From: Sphingomonadales bacterium
Lineage (GTDB): Bacteria > Pseudomonadota > Alphaproteobacteria > SMXS01
Direction of reading: 5' to 3'
Assembly (NCBI GenBank): GCA_022844405.1
Contig: JALHLV010000012.1
Coordinates: 62,001 to 126,000 of the forward strand
Length of the DNA stretch: 64,000 nucleotides
Below, one piece after another: positions 14,106-46,737 of this stretch. Under the pieces are notes generated by a model. The model ran no database searches. It was given only the letters and a program-made list of their open reading frames with translations, and was not told the origin of the DNA. Position 1 is the stretch's first letter; every line of letters begins with the position of its first letter. The position numbers and the translations under genes are program-made.

Positions 14106-15101
14106 TCACGAGGCGTTCAGGGCCTGCCGGCCGGTCGTGCCCAAATCGGGGCGCGCCGCCGGCGGTTCGAGGCTGCTGAAGTCGAGCAACCGTTCGCCTG
14201 GCGGCGGCACGATCTCGTCAAGGTCGCCGGTCAGGTAACGATCGAAGAACGTCGCCAGCAACTTGCGCTTCAGGATATCGAACATCAGGTTGTGATGGTC
14301 GACTCCGCGGAAGCCGATTCCGACGGCGCCGACGAGCTGTTCGAATGCCTCGGCACCGTCGCGGTCGGGCTGATGGTCCGCGCCGAAGAAGGCGAGCAGC
14401 CGCGTCGAGCGGACGGCGATGCTGCCGTAGAGCCGTTCGAAGATCGCGAAATCGGCATGCTGATCGTTGAGCGAATAGCCGCGCTTTTCCCACATCCGCA
14501 CCAGGTGAAAGGTGGGGCCGGGCGGCTTGCCGGACATGGATACGGCCCGCTCGGCCCCGAGCATGGCGCCGACGGTGAACGATGCCCAGCCGCCGCCGCT
14601 GGTGCCGATGCTGCGCACCGACCGGTAGCCGGCCAGATCGATATCGCGGCGGATGCGTTCGGCGACGAGCCCGAGGTCCGGCGCGTATTCCGGCACGCCC
14701 TGCAGATAGATGCGCTTGCTCGGATCCCTGAGCAGCAGCACGTCGAACCGGCTGCCGTCGAGGTGCTGAAGTACGACCGGAACGGGAACCTGCAATCGAT
14801 CGGCCAGGCCGCAGAACGCCAGGAGAAGGTCACGCGGCGCGTCCTGCCCGTTCCGGGTCGTGTAGAGCGCGACATTCCTGGATATCAGTTCTCTCCGGAA
14901 TGGCTGCACCGTCTTCGCCTGCATGAACATCATGGCGCGGATATTCTCCGACCAGGCGGATACTTCCGGGGGCAACATTGTCCGGTAACGAGACAGCGAC
15001 GCGATGTCGTTCGGGGTCGCGTCACATTCGGTGAGGATCTGCAGCCGGTAGAAATCGGCTGGCGTGCGGCATGCCATGAAATGCTCGACGAGCAGGTTCA
15101 T
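14106..15101 (-). CDS. alpha/beta hydrolase-like protein of the ligase-ACP operon
   Basis: This 331-residue protein has a nucleophile elbow GTSGGGWAS (G-x-S-x-G), preceded by a strand and a helix with AERIRRDIDLAGYRSVRSI, and a late DHHNLMFDILK that could supply the catalytic His. The alpha/beta hydrolase fold is likely though overall similarity to named families is not obvious to me. Its ATG overlaps the stop of the acyl carrier protein gene (ATGA), so it is translated with the ligase and carrier protein. A role releasing or moving an acyl group from the carrier protein (thioesterase or acyltransferase) fits the context but is inferred. It ends four bases from the oppositely oriented PNPOx-like gene. 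Confidence 0.65.
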   Translation of the reverse strand: MNLLVEHFMACRTPADFYRLQILTECDATPNDIASLSRYRTMLPPEVSAWSENIRAMMFMQAKTVQPFRRELISRNVALYTTRNGQDAPRDLLLAFCGLADRLQVPVPVVLQHLDGSRFDVLLLRDPSKRIYLQGVPEYAPDLGLVAERIRRDIDLAGYRSVRSIGTSGGGWASFTVGAMLGAERAVSMSGKPPGPTFHLVRMWEKRGYSLNDQHADFAIFERLYGSIAVRSTRLLAFFGADHQPDRDGAEAFEQLVGAVGIGFRGVDHHNLMFDILKRKLLATFFDRYLTGDLDEIVPPPGERLLDFSSLEPPAARPDLGTTGRQALNAS

Positions 15102-15379
15102 CCGGCCGCGCTCTCCCCGGCAAGATAGGCCGCCATGGCGTTGATGCTGGGCCTGGTCTCCACCTCGCCGCTCGTCAGGGTGATGCCAAACTCGGTCTCG
15201 AGGAAAATGCAGAACTCCATGCGCGCGAGGGAATCGAACCCCAGTTCCTCGAAACTGCAGTCGCGGGCCGGGTCGTTCATCCGCTCGAGCATGGCGGGCG
15301 AGTTGGGACCGATCGAGGGATTGGCCGCGATGGCGGCCAGAACCCGTTCGCGCATGGCCAGGTACGCAGGCGACGTCAC
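15098..15379 (-). CDS. free-standing acyl/peptidyl carrier protein
   Basis: This 93-residue protein has the carrier protein signature EELGFDSLARMEFCIFLE, where the Ser of DSL receives the 4'-phosphopantetheine arm, followed by EFGITLTSGEVETRPSINAMAAYL, the usual helix III region. The start is GTG at 15379, with GGGAGAG upstream and a GTGA overlap with the ligase stop; the hydrolase ATG overlaps its own stop. The carrier is thus locked between a ligase that could load it and a hydrolase that could unload it. It is not the primary fatty-acid AcpP, which normally sits with fabD, fabG and fabF. Confidence 0.88.
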   Translation of the reverse strand: MTSPAYLAMRERVLAAIAANPSIGPNSPAMLERMNDPARDCSFEELGFDSLARMEFCIFLETEFGITLTSGEVETRPSINAMAAYLAGESAAG

Positions 15380-16818
15380 TGGAACTCTCCCTGCGATGCA
15401 CGGGCCGACAATTCGCGCCGCACCACCTTGCCCTGCGCATTGCGCGGAATCTCCGGCAAGCCGATCACCTTCCTCGGTGCCCGGATGCCCAGCCGCTCGC
15501 GGCAGTACGACATCAGCGCCCCGAGGTCGCAGCCGTCGGCGCCGACCACGGCCAGCATGGGAATGTCGCCGTGCACCGGCGAGCGCATCGGAAACGCTGC
15601 GCACTCGATCACGCCGGGGAAGTGCTCCGCCACCTTCTCGATCTCGGCCGGGAAGATGTTGATGGAGTTGAGGATCATCATGTCGTCGGCGCGGCCGCCG
15701 AACACCAGGACGCCGTCGTCGGTCAGCGCGCCGCGGTCGCCGCCCACGAACCATCCGTCGCGGAACATCCTGGCGGTCAGTTCCTCATCGCCGAGATAGA
15801 AGCTGGCCATGCCGGGCGTGCGGATGCGGATCAGGCCTTCGACATTGGGCGGCAAAGGCCGGCCGGCGTCGTCGGTGATCTCCAACTGAACACCGGGCAA
15901 CGGCCGCCCGACGCCATCGGGGTAGCGGGCGTGCATGTCAGGTCCGGCGACGGCGATGTTGCCGCATTCGGTGGCGCCGTATTCGACGTAGAGCAACGGG
16001 GTCTGCCGGTTCCGGAAGGCGGCACGCATGGGGCCGGGTATGCGCGAGCCGCCCACATAGACCGCGATCCCCTCGGGTACCCGGTCCGCCACCTCGATCA
16101 GCGACTGGGCCTGGGCAGGAGAAAGCCGCAGCAGGCTGACGCCGAAACGGCGGCAGATCTCCGGAATCTCGGAATGGTCGGCGGCCTGGAGAAGGCTCGT
16201 ATAGCCCGTCACCGCGCTACGCAGCCGGTGCTTCTTGGGATAGAGGAATTCCACCGGCGACGGGACGTATTCGACGCCGGTCTGCGACACCATCGAGCGG
16301 GTCCGTGCCTGGAGCATCGTCGACCGGTGGGAGATCGGGATCACCTTGAAGGTGCCCGTGGTCCCCGATCCCGTGAACAGCGACGCGACAGCCTCGTCGC
16401 CCGGAACCGGCGCGGCGGCGTCCCCGGCGGCGAGCGCCGATGTCGCCTGCTCGAAGTCCGGGACGATCAGCGGGGCCGCGTCCGACCTCTCGCCTTCATC
16501 CGCCAGGATGGCCGCGATGCCGCACCTGGCGACGAGGGCCTGCCGTGCCGACGGCGGATCGTGGCTGGCGATGTTGACTTGCGGACAACCCAGCCGCAGC
16601 AGCGCGAGGCTTGCCAGCATATGCCGGCGCTCGTCGGCGATCGAAATGCCCACGACGTCGCCCGGACGCAGTCCGTGCCGTTCCAGCCAGGCGGCGAGGC
16701 GAGAGACCTGCGCGCCGTATTCGCCGAACGCGAGGACACCTTGCGCGTCGATGAGCGCGGGGCGTTCGGGGTGTTGCCCGCAGGTGTTGCGGAAGCTGAC
16801 GAGAAAGCTGCTGTCCAT
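15376..16818 (-). CDS. AMP-dependent acyl-CoA/acyl-ACP ligase
   Basis: This 480-residue adenylate-forming enzyme has A3 FTGSGTTGTFKVIPIS near residue 152 (first Ser of the usual TSGTTG loop is Gly-Ser), A5 EYGATECGN near 279, A7 GWFVGGDRGALTDDG near 356, hinge GRADDMMILNSINIFPAEIE and a C-terminal PRNAQGKVVRREL with the A10 Lys. It should activate a carboxylic acid as acyl-AMP. The GTGA overlap with a carrier protein gene suggests transfer to the carrier's phosphopantetheine rather than, or as well as, CoA. It is the first gene of a three-gene leftward operon; the next gene upstream, acetoacetyl-CoA synthetase, is 52 bases away in the same direction. Confidence 0.88.
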   Translation of the reverse strand: MDSSFLVSFRNTCGQHPERPALIDAQGVLAFGEYGAQVSRLAAWLERHGLRPGDVVGISIADERRHMLASLALLRLGCPQVNIASHDPPSARQALVARCGIAAILADEGERSDAAPLIVPDFEQATSALAAGDAAAPVPGDEAVASLFTGSGTTGTFKVIPISHRSTMLQARTRSMVSQTGVEYVPSPVEFLYPKKHRLRSAVTGYTSLLQAADHSEIPEICRRFGVSLLRLSPAQAQSLIEVADRVPEGIAVYVGGSRIPGPMRAAFRNRQTPLLYVEYGATECGNIAVAGPDMHARYPDGVGRPLPGVQLEITDDAGRPLPPNVEGLIRIRTPGMASFYLGDEELTARMFRDGWFVGGDRGALTDDGVLVFGGRADDMMILNSINIFPAEIEKVAEHFPGVIECAAFPMRSPVHGDIPMLAVVGADGCDLGALMSYCRERLGIRAPRKVIGLPEIPRNAQGKVVRRELSARASQGEFQ

Positions 16819-16870: not shown

Positions 16871-18832
<1,962 letters not shown>

Positions 18833-43040: not shown

Positions 43041-43292
43041 GTGAACGCGACCGAAGAACAGGTTCTAGAGGTCATTCGAAAACACGCGCCGGACGCGACC
43101 GCGCCGGTTACGCGCCATTCCAGAATCGAGGACGTCGGCATCGATTCCTACGGCCTGATCGAGGTCGTGTTCGATCTCGAGGAACAGCTGGCCACCGATA
43201 TTCCCTACAACGCGAACGATGGATCCCTGGTCGGCGCCGAGACCGTGGGCGACCTGATCGACAGGCTGCTCGCCCTGCTCGACAAGGCCTGA
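43041..43292 (+). CDS. acyl carrier protein (specialised)
   Basis: This 83-residue carrier protein has RIEDVGIDSYGLIEVVFDLEEQ-like sequence, with the phosphopantetheine Ser in GIDSYGLIE near residue 38 and the C-terminal GAETVGDLIDRLLALL helix. GTG at 43041 is chosen because GGGAGG stands six bases before it; an upstream ATG at 42999 has no such site. The gene ends one base before the ketosynthase ATG, so the carrier and condensing enzyme are made together. It differs from housekeeping AcpP (GADSLDTVE) and is a second free-standing carrier in the window. Confidence 0.88.
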   Translation: MNATEEQVLEVIRKHAPDATAPVTRHSRIEDVGIDSYGLIEVVFDLEEQLATDIPYNANDGSLVGAETVGDLIDRLLALLDKA

Positions 43293-43293
43293 C

Positions 43294-44517
43294 ATGAGCC
43301 GCCGCGTCGTCGTCACGGGGTTGGGCGTGGTGTCGGCCATCGGCATCGGCCGGGACGCCTATTGGGAGGCGCTGCGCAGCGGCACGAGCGGTATGGGCAC
43401 CTGCACCGCCCTGTGGACGCGGGACGAACGGAGCGAGGCGTTCCAGCCCATCGTCGCCGAGGTCAGCGGCTTGGAGGCCGCTGCCACGGCCCTGGGCGTC
43501 GAGGTCACCCGCATGGACCGGTTCACCCAGATGGCGGTGATGGCGGCCGACGAGGCGCTGGCCGATTCCGGCCTCAGCATCGGCAACGAGGATGCCAGAC
43601 GGATCGCCACCATCGTCGGCAGCGGCATCGGCGGCCACGAGACCCAGGACGAGGCGTATTACGGCATGCTGCGGCGGGGCAAGCGCGTCCATCCGCTGAC
43701 CGTGCTGCGCACCATTTCCAGCACGGCGCCGAGCCTGATCAGCATCAGGTACGGCCTGCGCGGGCCGGCCTTCGCCATCGCCAGCGCCTGCGCCTCGGGC
43801 GCGCACGCCATCGGCGTCTGCACCGACCTGATCCGTGCCGGATCGGCCGATATGGGCCTGGCCGGCGCGGCGGAAGCCTGCCTGACCTATGGCTGCCTGA
43901 TGGCGTGGAACGCCATGCACATCATGAGCGCGGGAATCTGCCGGCCGTTCAGCAAGAACCGCGACGGCCTGGTGATCGGCGAAGGCGCCGGCATCCTGGT
44001 GCTGGAGGAATACGAACACGCCGTCGCACGCGGCGCGGACATCTACGCCGAGATCGTCGGCTTCGGCATGAACGCGGACGCCAAGGACATGCTGAATCCC
44101 TCCATGGAAGGCGCCACCGACGCCATGCAGCTTGCCCTGGCCGGCCATAGGGTTATCGATCCGTCACGGGTCTACATCAACGCCCATGGAACCGGAACGC
44201 TGGCCAACGATCCGACGGAGACCAGGGCCATCCGGGCGGCGTTCGGTGCCGCCGCGGACGCCATGGCGGTGTCCTCCACCAAATCCATGCACGGGCACCT
44301 GCTGGGCGCGGCCGGCGCGGTCGAGTCCATCGCATCGATCCTGGCCATGCGGCATTCCTTCGTGCCGCCGACCATCAATCTGGACGAGCCGGACCCGCAA
44401 TGCGACCTAGACTATACGCCCAATGCGGGACAGGTCCGCGAGATCGACCTGGCGATCTCCAATTCGTTCGCCTTCGGCGGACTGAACGCCGTGGTCGCCT
44501 TCGGCAAGGCGAAATGA
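43294..44517 (+). CDS. beta-ketoacyl-ACP synthase (FabF/FabB-like)
   Basis: This 407-residue condensing enzyme has the full catalytic triad: Cys166 in SACASGAHAIG, His298 in NAHGTGTLAND and His335 in KSMHGHLLGAAGAVE, with Lys330 and the C-terminal NSFAFGGLNAVVAFGKAK. It should extend an acyl chain by decarboxylative condensation with malonyl-ACP. It starts one base after the neighbouring ACP stop. No fabD, fabG or fabZ lies nearby, so it must borrow these or carry out one special condensation. The two LptF/G-like genes follow in the same direction after 23 bases. Confidence 0.92.
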   Translation: MSRRVVVTGLGVVSAIGIGRDAYWEALRSGTSGMGTCTALWTRDERSEAFQPIVAEVSGLEAAATALGVEVTRMDRFTQMAVMAADEALADSGLSIGNEDARRIATIVGSGIGGHETQDEAYYGMLRRGKRVHPLTVLRTISSTAPSLISIRYGLRGPAFAIASACASGAHAIGVCTDLIRAGSADMGLAGAAEACLTYGCLMAWNAMHIMSAGICRPFSKNRDGLVIGEGAGILVLEEYEHAVARGADIYAEIVGFGMNADAKDMLNPSMEGATDAMQLALAGHRVIDPSRVYINAHGTGTLANDPTETRAIRAAFGAAADAMAVSSTKSMHGHLLGAAGAVESIASILAMRHSFVPPTINLDEPDPQCDLDYTPNAGQVREIDLAISNSFAFGGLNAVVAFGKAK

Positions 44518-44540
44518 TGCGAACGCGCCGGTAGCCCGCA

Positions 44541-45650
44541 ATGCGAACCATCGAGGGCTACATCACGAGACAGATCGCCCGGACAAGTGGCATCGTCCTG
44601 CTGATCATGACGGCCGCCTTCCTGCTCGAACGCTCACTGCGTCTGATGCACGAGATCGACCCGTCCGCCGTTCCCCTGGAGCTGGCGGCCGGCCTGCTGT
44701 TCGCGCGCCTTCCCGAAATCCTCGGCATCGCGATACCCTGGGCCTTCTTCGCGGGCATCCTGCTGACATTTCAGCGCCTGGTTAGGGACAGCGAACTGGA
44801 CGCGGCCTATGCATCGGGTATCGGGCCGCCCGAGCTCGCGCGCATGCTACTGCTGACGTCGGGATGCGTGGCGGCGCTGCTGGCTCCGGTGTTCTGGTTT
44901 CTGCTGCCCCATGGACACTACCACGTCAGGGAACTGACCCAGCAGGCGGCTCGTGCGGCCATCGGCGCGCCGCTCAAGCTGGACTCCTTCGTGCAGGTCG
45001 ATGACGGCGTTCTCTATGTCCAGCCGCGCAGGTCCGGTGGACTCGCCGACATCTTCGTCTACGAGCCCGGCGTGAAGGGCGACCGCTATGTGACGACCGC
45101 CGTCGTGGAAAACTTCGAACTGTCGGCCAAAAAGGGCACGCTGTTCTTCACGGCACGCGATGGAAGGCGGGTGACCATTGCGGCGCCGGGCCGGGCATCC
45201 GGCCTGCTGACGTTCAGCCATCTCCGGCAGCTCGTCCATGCGGTCCCGCCGAACAGCGCCATCCCCCGGGGCAAGGATGCGGGAGAGCTGACCCTGAGCG
45301 AGCTCCTTGCGCCGCCGCCAGCCCTTGCAAGAACCGAGGGCCATTCCCTGCGTTCGCAGCTACACATCAAGATCGCCCGCGTCCTTGTCGTCCTCCTGCT
45401 GCCGTTGATGGCCGTGCCGCTGGCACTGGGCTTTCCGGTCTCACGGCAATGGATGGCCATCGTGATCGGAGGCGGCTTGATCCTGGCGCTCGATCAATCC
45501 CTGATCTTCGGCGAGGCCCTTGCCAGCCGTGGAGAAACCTCGCCATGGCTAGGCATTTGGGGCAGCATGGGCGTGTTCGCGGCGATCGCCCTGTCGCTCT
45601 CGGTCTTTCAGGGTTTCCGTTTCTCGCGCGGCCACGCCGGTGCGCATTGA
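44541..45650 (+). CDS. LptF/LptG family permease (first of pair)
   Basis: This 369-residue membrane protein has the LptF/LptG layout: an N-terminal helix bundle (TSGIVLLIMTAAFLLERSLR, AAGLLFARLPEILGIAIPWAFFAGILL, and LLLTSGCVAALLAPVFWFLLP), a central soluble beta-jellyroll of about 150 residues that sits in the periplasm, and C-terminal helices (ARVLVVLLLPLMAVPLALGF and IVIGGGLILALDQSLIFG). In the Lpt system such a pair extracts LPS from the inner membrane. Here the gene follows an ACP and ketosynthase instead of lptD and surA. It is therefore likely a paralogue moving another lipid, possibly made by its neighbours. No LptB- or LptC-like gene is adjacent. Confidence 0.85.
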   Translation: MRTIEGYITRQIARTSGIVLLIMTAAFLLERSLRLMHEIDPSAVPLELAAGLLFARLPEILGIAIPWAFFAGILLTFQRLVRDSELDAAYASGIGPPELARMLLLTSGCVAALLAPVFWFLLPHGHYHVRELTQQAARAAIGAPLKLDSFVQVDDGVLYVQPRRSGGLADIFVYEPGVKGDRYVTTAVVENFELSAKKGTLFFTARDGRRVTIAAPGRASGLLTFSHLRQLVHAVPPNSAIPRGKDAGELTLSELLAPPPALARTEGHSLRSQLHIKIARVLVVLLLPLMAVPLALGFPVSRQWMAIVIGGGLILALDQSLIFGEALASRGETSPWLGIWGSMGVFAAIALSLSVFQGFRFSRGHAGAH

Positions 45651-45657
45651 GACCAGC

Positions 45658-46737
45658 ATGACCCGCATCCTTGCCCGGTATTTCTCGGCGGTGATCCTGA
45701 AGCATTACGTGCTGTTCAGCATCGCCGCCGTCGTCATCGCGTCACTGGTCGAGTTCCTGGAGAACCGGGACGGACTGCTCGACGATCCATCGGTGAGCAT
45801 GCTGGATGCGCTCAAATACTCGGCGCTGAGCGCGCCCGCAATCTTCTCGTTGCTGGCCGGGTTCATCGCGCTGGTGTCGGCGCTGATCGCGGCCATGACC
45901 CTGCTGCGCTATTCCGAGCTGAAAGCCATGCTCGCCGCCGGCCTGGGCCACGGGCAGCTTCTTCTGGCGCTCGCCCCAGCGGCGCTGAGCATGCTCGCGT
46001 TCCATTTCCTGATGGACAGTGCCGTATTGCCGCGCACCGCCGCCGAATTGCGGGCGTGGGGTGTCGGCAAGGCCTGGACGCGGCAACCGGGCGACACCGA
46101 AGCGATCTGGACCCGGGACGGCGACTATATCGTCGCCGTGCGCGGGCTCGACGCGCGCGCCGGGGCGCTTGTCGGCGTGGAGGTGTTCGCGCTCGGCACG
46201 TCGGGCGATCTGAAATGGCACCTGTCGGCGCCGGTAGCACGTCTCGATGCAGGCTATCTGGTGATCCCTCGGGCGACGCGCACCGTCGCGGGCGGCGCCC
46301 GGACGTCCACGGTCAGCGACGTGCGTTTCAGGTCGAGGCTGGACTTCGACACGCTGGCGCTGCTCGCGCCCCAGCCTCACCAGATGTCGGCGTGGACTAT
46401 CGCCAGGCTGCTGAAGCAATCAGGCGCCGCGTCCCGTCCGCGCCACGTCTATGACCTGTGGTTCCACCGGAGGCTGGCGGCGCCGGTGACGACGGCGCTG
46501 GCCGTGCTGCTGCTGGCGCCGATGATCGAACGCCTGCACCGCATCAGCACCGTGCCGATCGTCCTCGTTGGCCTAGCGGGCGGGTTCTGCTACTTCGTCG
46601 CCGATGGCTTGCTGACGGGCCTGGGGGAAGCGGGCCTGGTCCGGCCGGCGATTGCCGCATGGGCGCTGCCTTGCCTGCTCGGCCTGCTGATCCTTGCGAT
46701 GTCCAGAGACGGCCCGAGGCCGATCGCCGGCCTCTAG
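45658..46737 (+). CDS. LptF/LptG family permease (second of pair)
   Basis: This 359-residue protein is the second LptF/LptG-type permease, with helices YVLFSIAAVVIASLVEFLE, FSLLAGFIALVSALIAAMTLL, LLLALAPAALSMLAFHFLMD, a periplasmic jellyroll (ARAGALVGVEVFALGTSGDL) and C-terminal helices ending in VRPAIAAWALPCLLGLLILAM. Two different LptF/G proteins side by side would form the usual heterodimer. It begins eight bases after the first permease stop at ATG 45658; a GTG at 45640 overlapping the first gene is an alternative. Its stop overlaps that of the convergent glycosyltransferase. Confidence 0.85.
   Translation: MTRILARYFSAVILKHYVLFSIAAVVIASLVEFLENRDGLLDDPSVSMLDALKYSALSAPAIFSLLAGFIALVSALIAAMTLLRYSELKAMLAAGLGHGQLLLALAPAALSMLAFHFLMDSAVLPRTAAELRAWGVGKAWTRQPGDTEAIWTRDGDYIVAVRGLDARAGALVGVEVFALGTSGDLKWHLSAPVARLDAGYLVIPRATRTVAGGARTSTVSDVRFRSRLDFDTLALLAPQPHQMSAWTIARLLKQSGAASRPRHVYDLWFHRRLAAPVTTALAVLLLAPMIERLHRISTVPIVLVGLAGGFCYFVADGLLTGLGEAGLVRPAIAAWALPCLLGLLILAMSRDGPRPIAGL

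Follow-up and report, generated by a model that had tools for sequence, protein, structure and literature searches.

A putative free-standing carrier-protein acyl cassette with an unclassified serine hydrolase in an alphaproteobacterial genus

Introduction

In D-alanylation, the adenylating ligase DltA loads the small stand-alone carrier DltC for transfer to an acceptor, together with DltB and DltD. An AMP-forming ligase, a carrier and hydrolases also lie close together in the exosortase A-associated set (TIGR03098 and partners), as they do in the locus described here. Separate adenylation, carrier and thioesterase proteins are known from kutzneride, namely KtzB/KtzN (adenylation), KtzC (carrier) and KtzF (type II thioesterase), and the same load-hold-release logic is found for nikkomycin in NikP1, an adenylation-carrier (A-T) didomain, and NikP2, a type II thioesterase (PMC4147253). 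Acyl transfer by an alpha/beta hydrolase fold has been described for CsaC (PMC7501274), and glycan O-acetylation by a Ser-Asp-His triad for Asp2 (PMC5578698).

Here we analyse three overlapping genes in a 64,000-nucleotide stretch of a Sphingomonadales genome, referred to as the window. A sequence-only reading of this DNA had proposed that they encode a minimal unit that loads, holds and releases one acid. Our literature search found no description of the trio, or of the sets of ATP-grasp, carrier and hydrolase genes reported below, an absence that we treat as weak evidence. While the load-hold-release idea is known from antibiotic clusters, its free-standing version and the hydrolase family look undescribed.

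Results

Layout of the cassette

The cassette lies on the minus strand and encodes, in this order, an AMP-forming ligase of the ANL superfamily (480 amino acids; 15376..16818), a stand-alone carrier protein with a GTG start (93 amino acids; 15098..15379) and an alpha/beta serine hydrolase that belongs to no named family (331 amino acids; 14106..15101). GTGA is common to the ligase stop and the carrier start, and ATGA to the carrier stop and the hydrolase start. These overlaps had been pointed out in the sequence-only reading and were confirmed by gene coordinates, Pfam domains and recurrence in three other species. The span that it gave for the trio, 14106-16818, is also right, and the likely transcript additionally takes in 18784..16871(-). 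The latter is a co-directional acetoacetate--CoA ligase gene (16871..18784, minus strand; NF002937, 952.9 bits) that ends 52 bp upstream of the trio. No terminator-like site was found in the gap between them, and one shared transcript is probable. A sigma-70-like promoter was not found in the region, the sigma-70 scan being uninformative for this organism. The acetoacetate--CoA ligase gene and a PNPOx-like gene are the neighbours of the trio, and the genome also has a gene for an ACPS-family phosphopantetheinyl transferase.

Two further observations concern gene order in the window. Between 16871 and 19024, patatin and 3-hydroxybutyrate dehydrogenase-like genes are absent, which precede acetoacetyl-CoA synthetase in L002, L008, G002 and G006; in L007 and G004, the patatin gene alone is missing before acetoacetyl-CoA synthetase. 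The second is a row of genes at 43041-46737, which begins with a small one for a carrier-like protein that has a GIDSYGL motif and gave no Pfam match at 1e-5. A ketosynthase gene and two LptF/LptG permease genes come next, then genes for a glycosyltransferase, a fatty acid hydroxylase and a GNAT protein, so that the row is a possible cluster for lipid synthesis and export.

The ligase and the carrier protein

The ligase, for which we propose acid adenylation and carrier loading, matches the Pfam families AMP-binding (PF00501, 1.8e-41) and AMP-binding_C (PF13193, 7.3e-07), and falls below the NCBIfam cut-offs (best match 169.3 bits versus 476; menE 164.6 versus 330). Among solved structures, the nearest are ligases of the MenE type (E 9e-38) and adenylation domains of NRPSs, with CoA ligases included. 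The ANL superfamily elements SGTTG..K158 (P-loop), YGATE (280-284), D378/D379 (hinge Asp) and K464 are present and conserved, with the YGATE motif intact and the catalytic Lys464 sitting in RNAQGK. The nucleotide-binding loop TGSGTTGTFK (residues 149-158; 16345..16374, minus strand) had been called unusual for its GSGTTG. This judgement did not survive comparison, as GSGTTG is an ordinary variant carried by six of seven close relatives and also by one more distant ligase, with TSGTTG in the seventh close relative (G002). We rejected the loop as a mark of specificity, since it varies inside the clade.

In an alignment with MenE, Phe191 of the ligase stands opposite a MenE His, and every one of the seven ligases in the clade described below has Phe or Tyr there. 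We take this to be the position of GrsA Asp235, which is Asp in alpha-amino-acid adenylation domains. Because Phe191 occupies it, there is a weak indication that an alpha-amino acid is less likely as substrate. Lys195, which the seven clade members share and for which the nearest outgroup (L112) has Leu, may point towards the acid pocket.

The carrier passes the Pfam PP-binding profile with 36.2 bits against a cut-off of 20.8 (PF00550, 7.1e-09). D49 and S50 are invariant among 11 homologous carriers, and motif (DSL) and conservation together predict Ser50 (codon 15230..15232, minus strand) as the phosphopantetheine-bearing residue. The carrier of 93 residues with its DSL serine, as originally read, is thereby confirmed.

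The trio is conserved in the genus

The sequence-only reading was to fall if the trio proved not to be conserved. The trio passes this check, as profile and protein searches recovered it from four species belonging to the genus, G000 (the window's own), G001, G003 and G005. Identity of the proteins from the other species to those of the window is 70-73% for the ligase, 67-75% for the carrier and 63-76% for the hydrolase. The junctions in the four species are 4-bp overlaps, with the sole exception of a 5-bp gap between carrier and hydrolase in G001, and acetoacetyl-CoA synthetase lies about 50-60 bp upstream in all four. The dN/dS values of 0.16-0.35 for the trio indicate purifying selection on all three genes. 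Its dS between species amounts to 0.6-1.1, versus 0.23-0.59 for the neighbours tested, its dN is higher too, and its third-position G+C (0.83-0.86) is below that of the two flanking genes (0.92), hinting that the trio may evolve faster than its neighbours or may have been exchanged. The clade ligase was not found in G006 (84% complete) or in G004 (78% complete), where a contig ends inside the relevant region. Genes outside the window were called by a purpose-written codon-usage script, and their starts are approximate. A single scan of public genomes returned L002 (CALQFM020000046.1) as the only record; it is titled 'Candidatus Kuenenia stuttgartiensis' and is evidently a mislabelled metagenome bin that belongs to the alphaproteobacterial genus of the window.

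Carrier linkage is a trait of one ligase clade

In a tree of 45 ligases, the seven carrier-linked ligases form one clade with a support of 0.99. The carrier gene is directly adjacent to the ligase gene in five of them and separated solely by a TauD gene in the other two, and a serine hydrolase accompanies the ligase-carrier pair in all seven. By comparison, none of 15 loci of more distant ligases has a carrier as immediate neighbour; at one of these (L123), a carrier is found one gene away, overlapping a different ligase gene. Judged by this contrast in gene neighbourhood, carrier linkage is a trait of the seven-member clade. The load-hold-release architecture proposed from the sequence is thus supported by genome comparison, with ligase and carrier together in every clade member and a serine hydrolase always present.

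The acetoacetate--CoA ligase gene constantly found upstream in four species could also mean that the cassette ligase is an ordinary acyl-CoA ligase, which acts with acetoacetyl-CoA synthetase in short-chain or ketone-body metabolism and has the carrier as an accessory; lower-similarity relatives are indeed mostly carrier-free ligases. We consider this improbable, given that the carrier accompanies the ligase throughout the clade, including G002, where the pair lies away from acetoacetyl-CoA synthetase. Moreover, the synthetase stands alone in G002 and G006, where it occurs with the patatin and 3-hydroxybutyrate dehydrogenase-like genes and without the trio. Because the G002 pair lies elsewhere and the synthetase is alone in both genomes, the link of the trio to ketone-body genes is probably one of position only. 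A ketone-body role of the trio was set aside on the ground that the ligase-carrier pair occurs without acetoacetyl-CoA synthetase in G002.

A different serine hydrolase occupies the third position in G002

The essentially complete genome of a fifth species, G002, encodes a ligase 56% identical to that of the window, together with a carrier, at a different locus that is not behind acetoacetyl-CoA synthetase. The third gene overlaps the carrier gene by ATGA, and its product has no significant similarity to the window hydrolase. It is another kind of alpha/beta hydrolase (FSH1, 2.3e-4) with a GHSLG elbow and a DH motif, and its paralogues elsewhere in the genus are 34-40% identical to it. As similarity is undetectable and paralogues exist, we infer that the G002 hydrolase is a replacement and favour extreme divergence less. 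The recruitment of an unrelated serine hydrolase to the same slot argues that serine-hydrolase chemistry on an acyl-carrier would be needed as the third step, and is the best evidence for it here.

A second family with a TauD-type oxygenase

In a second alphaproteobacterial family (G189 and G390), the ligase is 40-42%, the carrier 31-42% (local alignments) and the hydrolase 32-33% identical to the window proteins. A TauD oxygenase (TauD/TfdA, PF02668, 4e-33) is encoded between ligase and carrier, and the ligase gene is divergent from the TauD-carrier-hydrolase run. An oxygenase within the set suggests that the acid might be altered while on the carrier, in the window's genus by an enzyme acting in trans from another locus, and then be set free by hydrolysis. 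Such use of adenylation, carrier and thioesterase units has precedents in beta-hydroxyhistidine (NikP1/NikP2) and a kutzneride building block (PMC4147253). We nevertheless see this outcome as a candidate held at below even confidence for the window's trio, as in five genus members the ligase-carrier set has no oxygenase or further tailoring gene beside it and the ligase, with Phe191 aligned to the MenE His, apparently lacks the Asp typical of alpha-amino-acid pockets.

The hydrolase has a predicted alpha/beta fold and an invariant triad

Profile searches with the hydrolase gave no Pfam, NCBIfam or PHROGs match at E up to 1; this includes the type II thioesterase profile (Pfam Thioesterase) and the exosortase A-associated hydrolase families TIGR03100 and TIGR03101. 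Relatives were not found in plasmids, nor in the PDB by sequence. Across 23 relatives with 14-76% identity to the window protein, D126, G135, G166, S168, D246, A250 and H270 are invariant. Ser168 (codon 14598..14600, minus strand) is the predicted nucleophile within the GTSGGG elbow (residues 166-171), Asp246 (14364..14366, minus strand) the predicted acid, the neighbouring Asp242 being variable, and His270 (14292..14294, minus strand) the predicted base. On account of this invariance, the catalytic triad is probably Ser168-Asp246-His270.

AlphaFold2 with the 23-row alignment gave a model with pLDDT 87 and pTM 0.87; a model from only four close hydrolases (pLDDT 39) was discarded. The best structural matches in the PDB are alpha/beta serine hydrolases, headed by EstA (2uz0, Z 15.6). 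CsaC (6yus) reaches Z 13.8 with rmsd 3.3, and the Gap123 complex (6oyc) Z 13.4; both fall into one broad band of similar scores with the esterases, in which differences in Z under 1 are ties and thioesterase, esterase and transferase are inseparable by likeness of fold. The alignments with CsaC and Gap123 begin at residue 23-27 of the hydrolase and thus include part of the N-terminal helices. With predicted fold, elbow Ser, acid and His in place, we are confident in the model-based assignment to the alpha/beta hydrolase fold, as a predicted serine enzyme, and the GTSGGG-containing, alpha/beta hydrolase-like protein of the initial description is upheld.

The presence of CsaC and Gap123 among the best structural matches raises the question of whether the hydrolase is a dedicated acyltransferase of the kind of Asp2/Gap2 or of CsaC, a capsule O-acetyltransferase, which would move the carrier-bound acyl group to the hydroxyl of a sugar, lipid or metabolite, so that the trio decorates an acceptor instead of yielding a free acid. 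CsaC and Asp2 acylate glycans by a Ser-His-Asp triad (PMC7501274, PMC5578698). In addition, one relative (L049) weakly matches the NCBIfam families XcbB/CpsF (0.0068) and Asp2 (0.078), another (L019) sits in a cluster that includes genes for a ketosynthase and a polysaccharide pyruvyl transferase, and transfer would be more sensible than hydrolysis for an operon without tailoring enzyme. On the other hand, plain esterases such as 2uz0 score equally or higher, the trio has no glycan gene beside it in the window's genus, and the TauD gene of the second family better fits modification followed by release. We therefore see the acyltransferase as a plausible candidate, at somewhat below even confidence. 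A link of the hydrolase to XcbB was set aside, as it comes from the single weak match of L049.

Carriers and loaders near hydrolase relatives

About half of the roughly two dozen hydrolase-relative loci that we read, which are partly orthologous and hence not independent, adjoin a carrier or an adenylation-carrier didomain, while other relatives have no carrier nearby. By gene neighbourhood, the hydrolase-carrier link is frequent, not universal. The loader at hydrolase loci of G189 and G391 is an ATP-grasp protein of the glutathionylspermidine-synthase type (PF03738, about 1e-105) with an unknown protein of 190-220 amino acids; G391 also has an A-T didomain as loader, and G344 and G504 are without obvious loader. 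We tentatively suggest that the hydrolase defines a new family of serine acyltransferases or thioesterases that depend on carriers. In this family, a carrier-hydrolase core with varied loaders would make small metabolites, acylated or modified, independently of any PKS or NRPS, a proposal that we hold with some reserve. The loaders in this proposal are the AMP ligase in the window, a ligase with TauD oxygenase (G189/G390), the adenylation-carrier didomain (G391), and the ATP-grasp protein with the unknown protein (G189, G391).

Several of these loci have features of their own. Genes for the 190-220 amino acid protein, a carrier and a window-hydrolase-like protein are consecutive in L055:7376-10518, L053:2089-5273 and L054:7423-9406, the first of these proteins being 44-53% identical among the three loci, and the glutathionylspermidine-synthase-like ATP-grasp gene heads the row in L055 and L053. 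Such rows are looking like an undescribed amide- or ester-forming set. L077:324-6085 (G391) contains a ligase gene, a gene for a protein without Pfam match, the start of which resembles a sulfotransferase, and a window-hydrolase-like gene overlapped by an adenylation-carrier didomain gene. At L018:124-3501, several adjacent sulfotransferase-like genes, one of them Pfam-confirmed, lie a few kb upstream of the G344 carrier-hydrolase pair. The genome search also found a window-hydrolase-like frame with one internal TGA in L009/L006 (G031).

Discussion

We consider it fairly probable that the operon is a free-standing carrier-protein acyl unit, which activates an acid, loads it on the carrier and releases it through a Ser168 acyl-enzyme. 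From its family and motifs, the AMP-forming ligase would adenylate one carboxylic acid. The linkage of ligase and carrier suggests that the acyl group would then be moved to the phosphopantetheine arm of the 93-amino acid carrier, with CoA not the end acceptor. Finally, as the predicted fold and the conserved triad suggest, the hydrolase, our proposed release or acyl-transfer enzyme, would take the acyl group onto Ser168 and pass it to water or to an acceptor alcohol or amine.

It would be futile to load an acid and hydrolyse it off unmodified. Before release, the carrier-bound acid may be modified in some relatives by an oxygenase of the TauD type. Since the operon of the window's genus has no tailoring gene, either its product would go to an acceptor, or an enzyme from another locus would modify it. 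The evidence between acceptor transfer, as suggested in the sequence-only reading, and release of a modified acid is close to even, and the presence of TauD in two relatives points as much to modification and release as to acceptor transfer.

Should the proposed acyl unit prove correct, a family of hydrolases that neither Pfam nor NCBIfam covers would gain a role on carrier proteins that can be tested, and genome mining could pick up small cassettes with a stand-alone carrier beyond antibiotic clusters. As the path from acid to product involves only three small proteins, all predicted to be soluble, it could be rebuilt in a tube, and the purpose of such orphan carriers is therefore directly testable.

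Compared with known systems, the trio differs from the Dlt system in that neither the DltB membrane acyltransferase nor DltD occurs with it, the third gene encoding a predicted soluble alpha/beta hydrolase instead. It also differs from the exosortase A set, as TIGR03098 is absent from the best 25 NCBIfam matches of the ligase. The O-acetyltransferases CsaC and Asp2/Gap2 resemble the window hydrolase in its predicted alpha/beta fold and Ser-His-Asp triad, and their structural matches to it extend over a similar length; however, the donor of CsaC is acetyl-CoA, not an acyl-carrier, the acceptors of CsaC and Asp2 are glycans, and the window hydrolase has no sequence-family match. In the NikP1/NikP2 system, a carrier-bound acid is oxidised and then set free by an alpha/beta hydrolase. 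The ligase-TauD-carrier-hydrolase sets found in G189 and G390 are similar to it, with TauD in place of a P450, whereas NikP1 is a fused A-T protein and the window operon is without oxygenase. The Ktz module, in turn, lies inside a large NRPS cluster and has an amino-acid product, while the trio has no NRPS, no thioesterase-family match and apparently no Asp of an amino-acid pocket; yet for both, the proposal is that one acid is loaded, held and released by a separate ligase, carrier and alpha/beta hydrolase.
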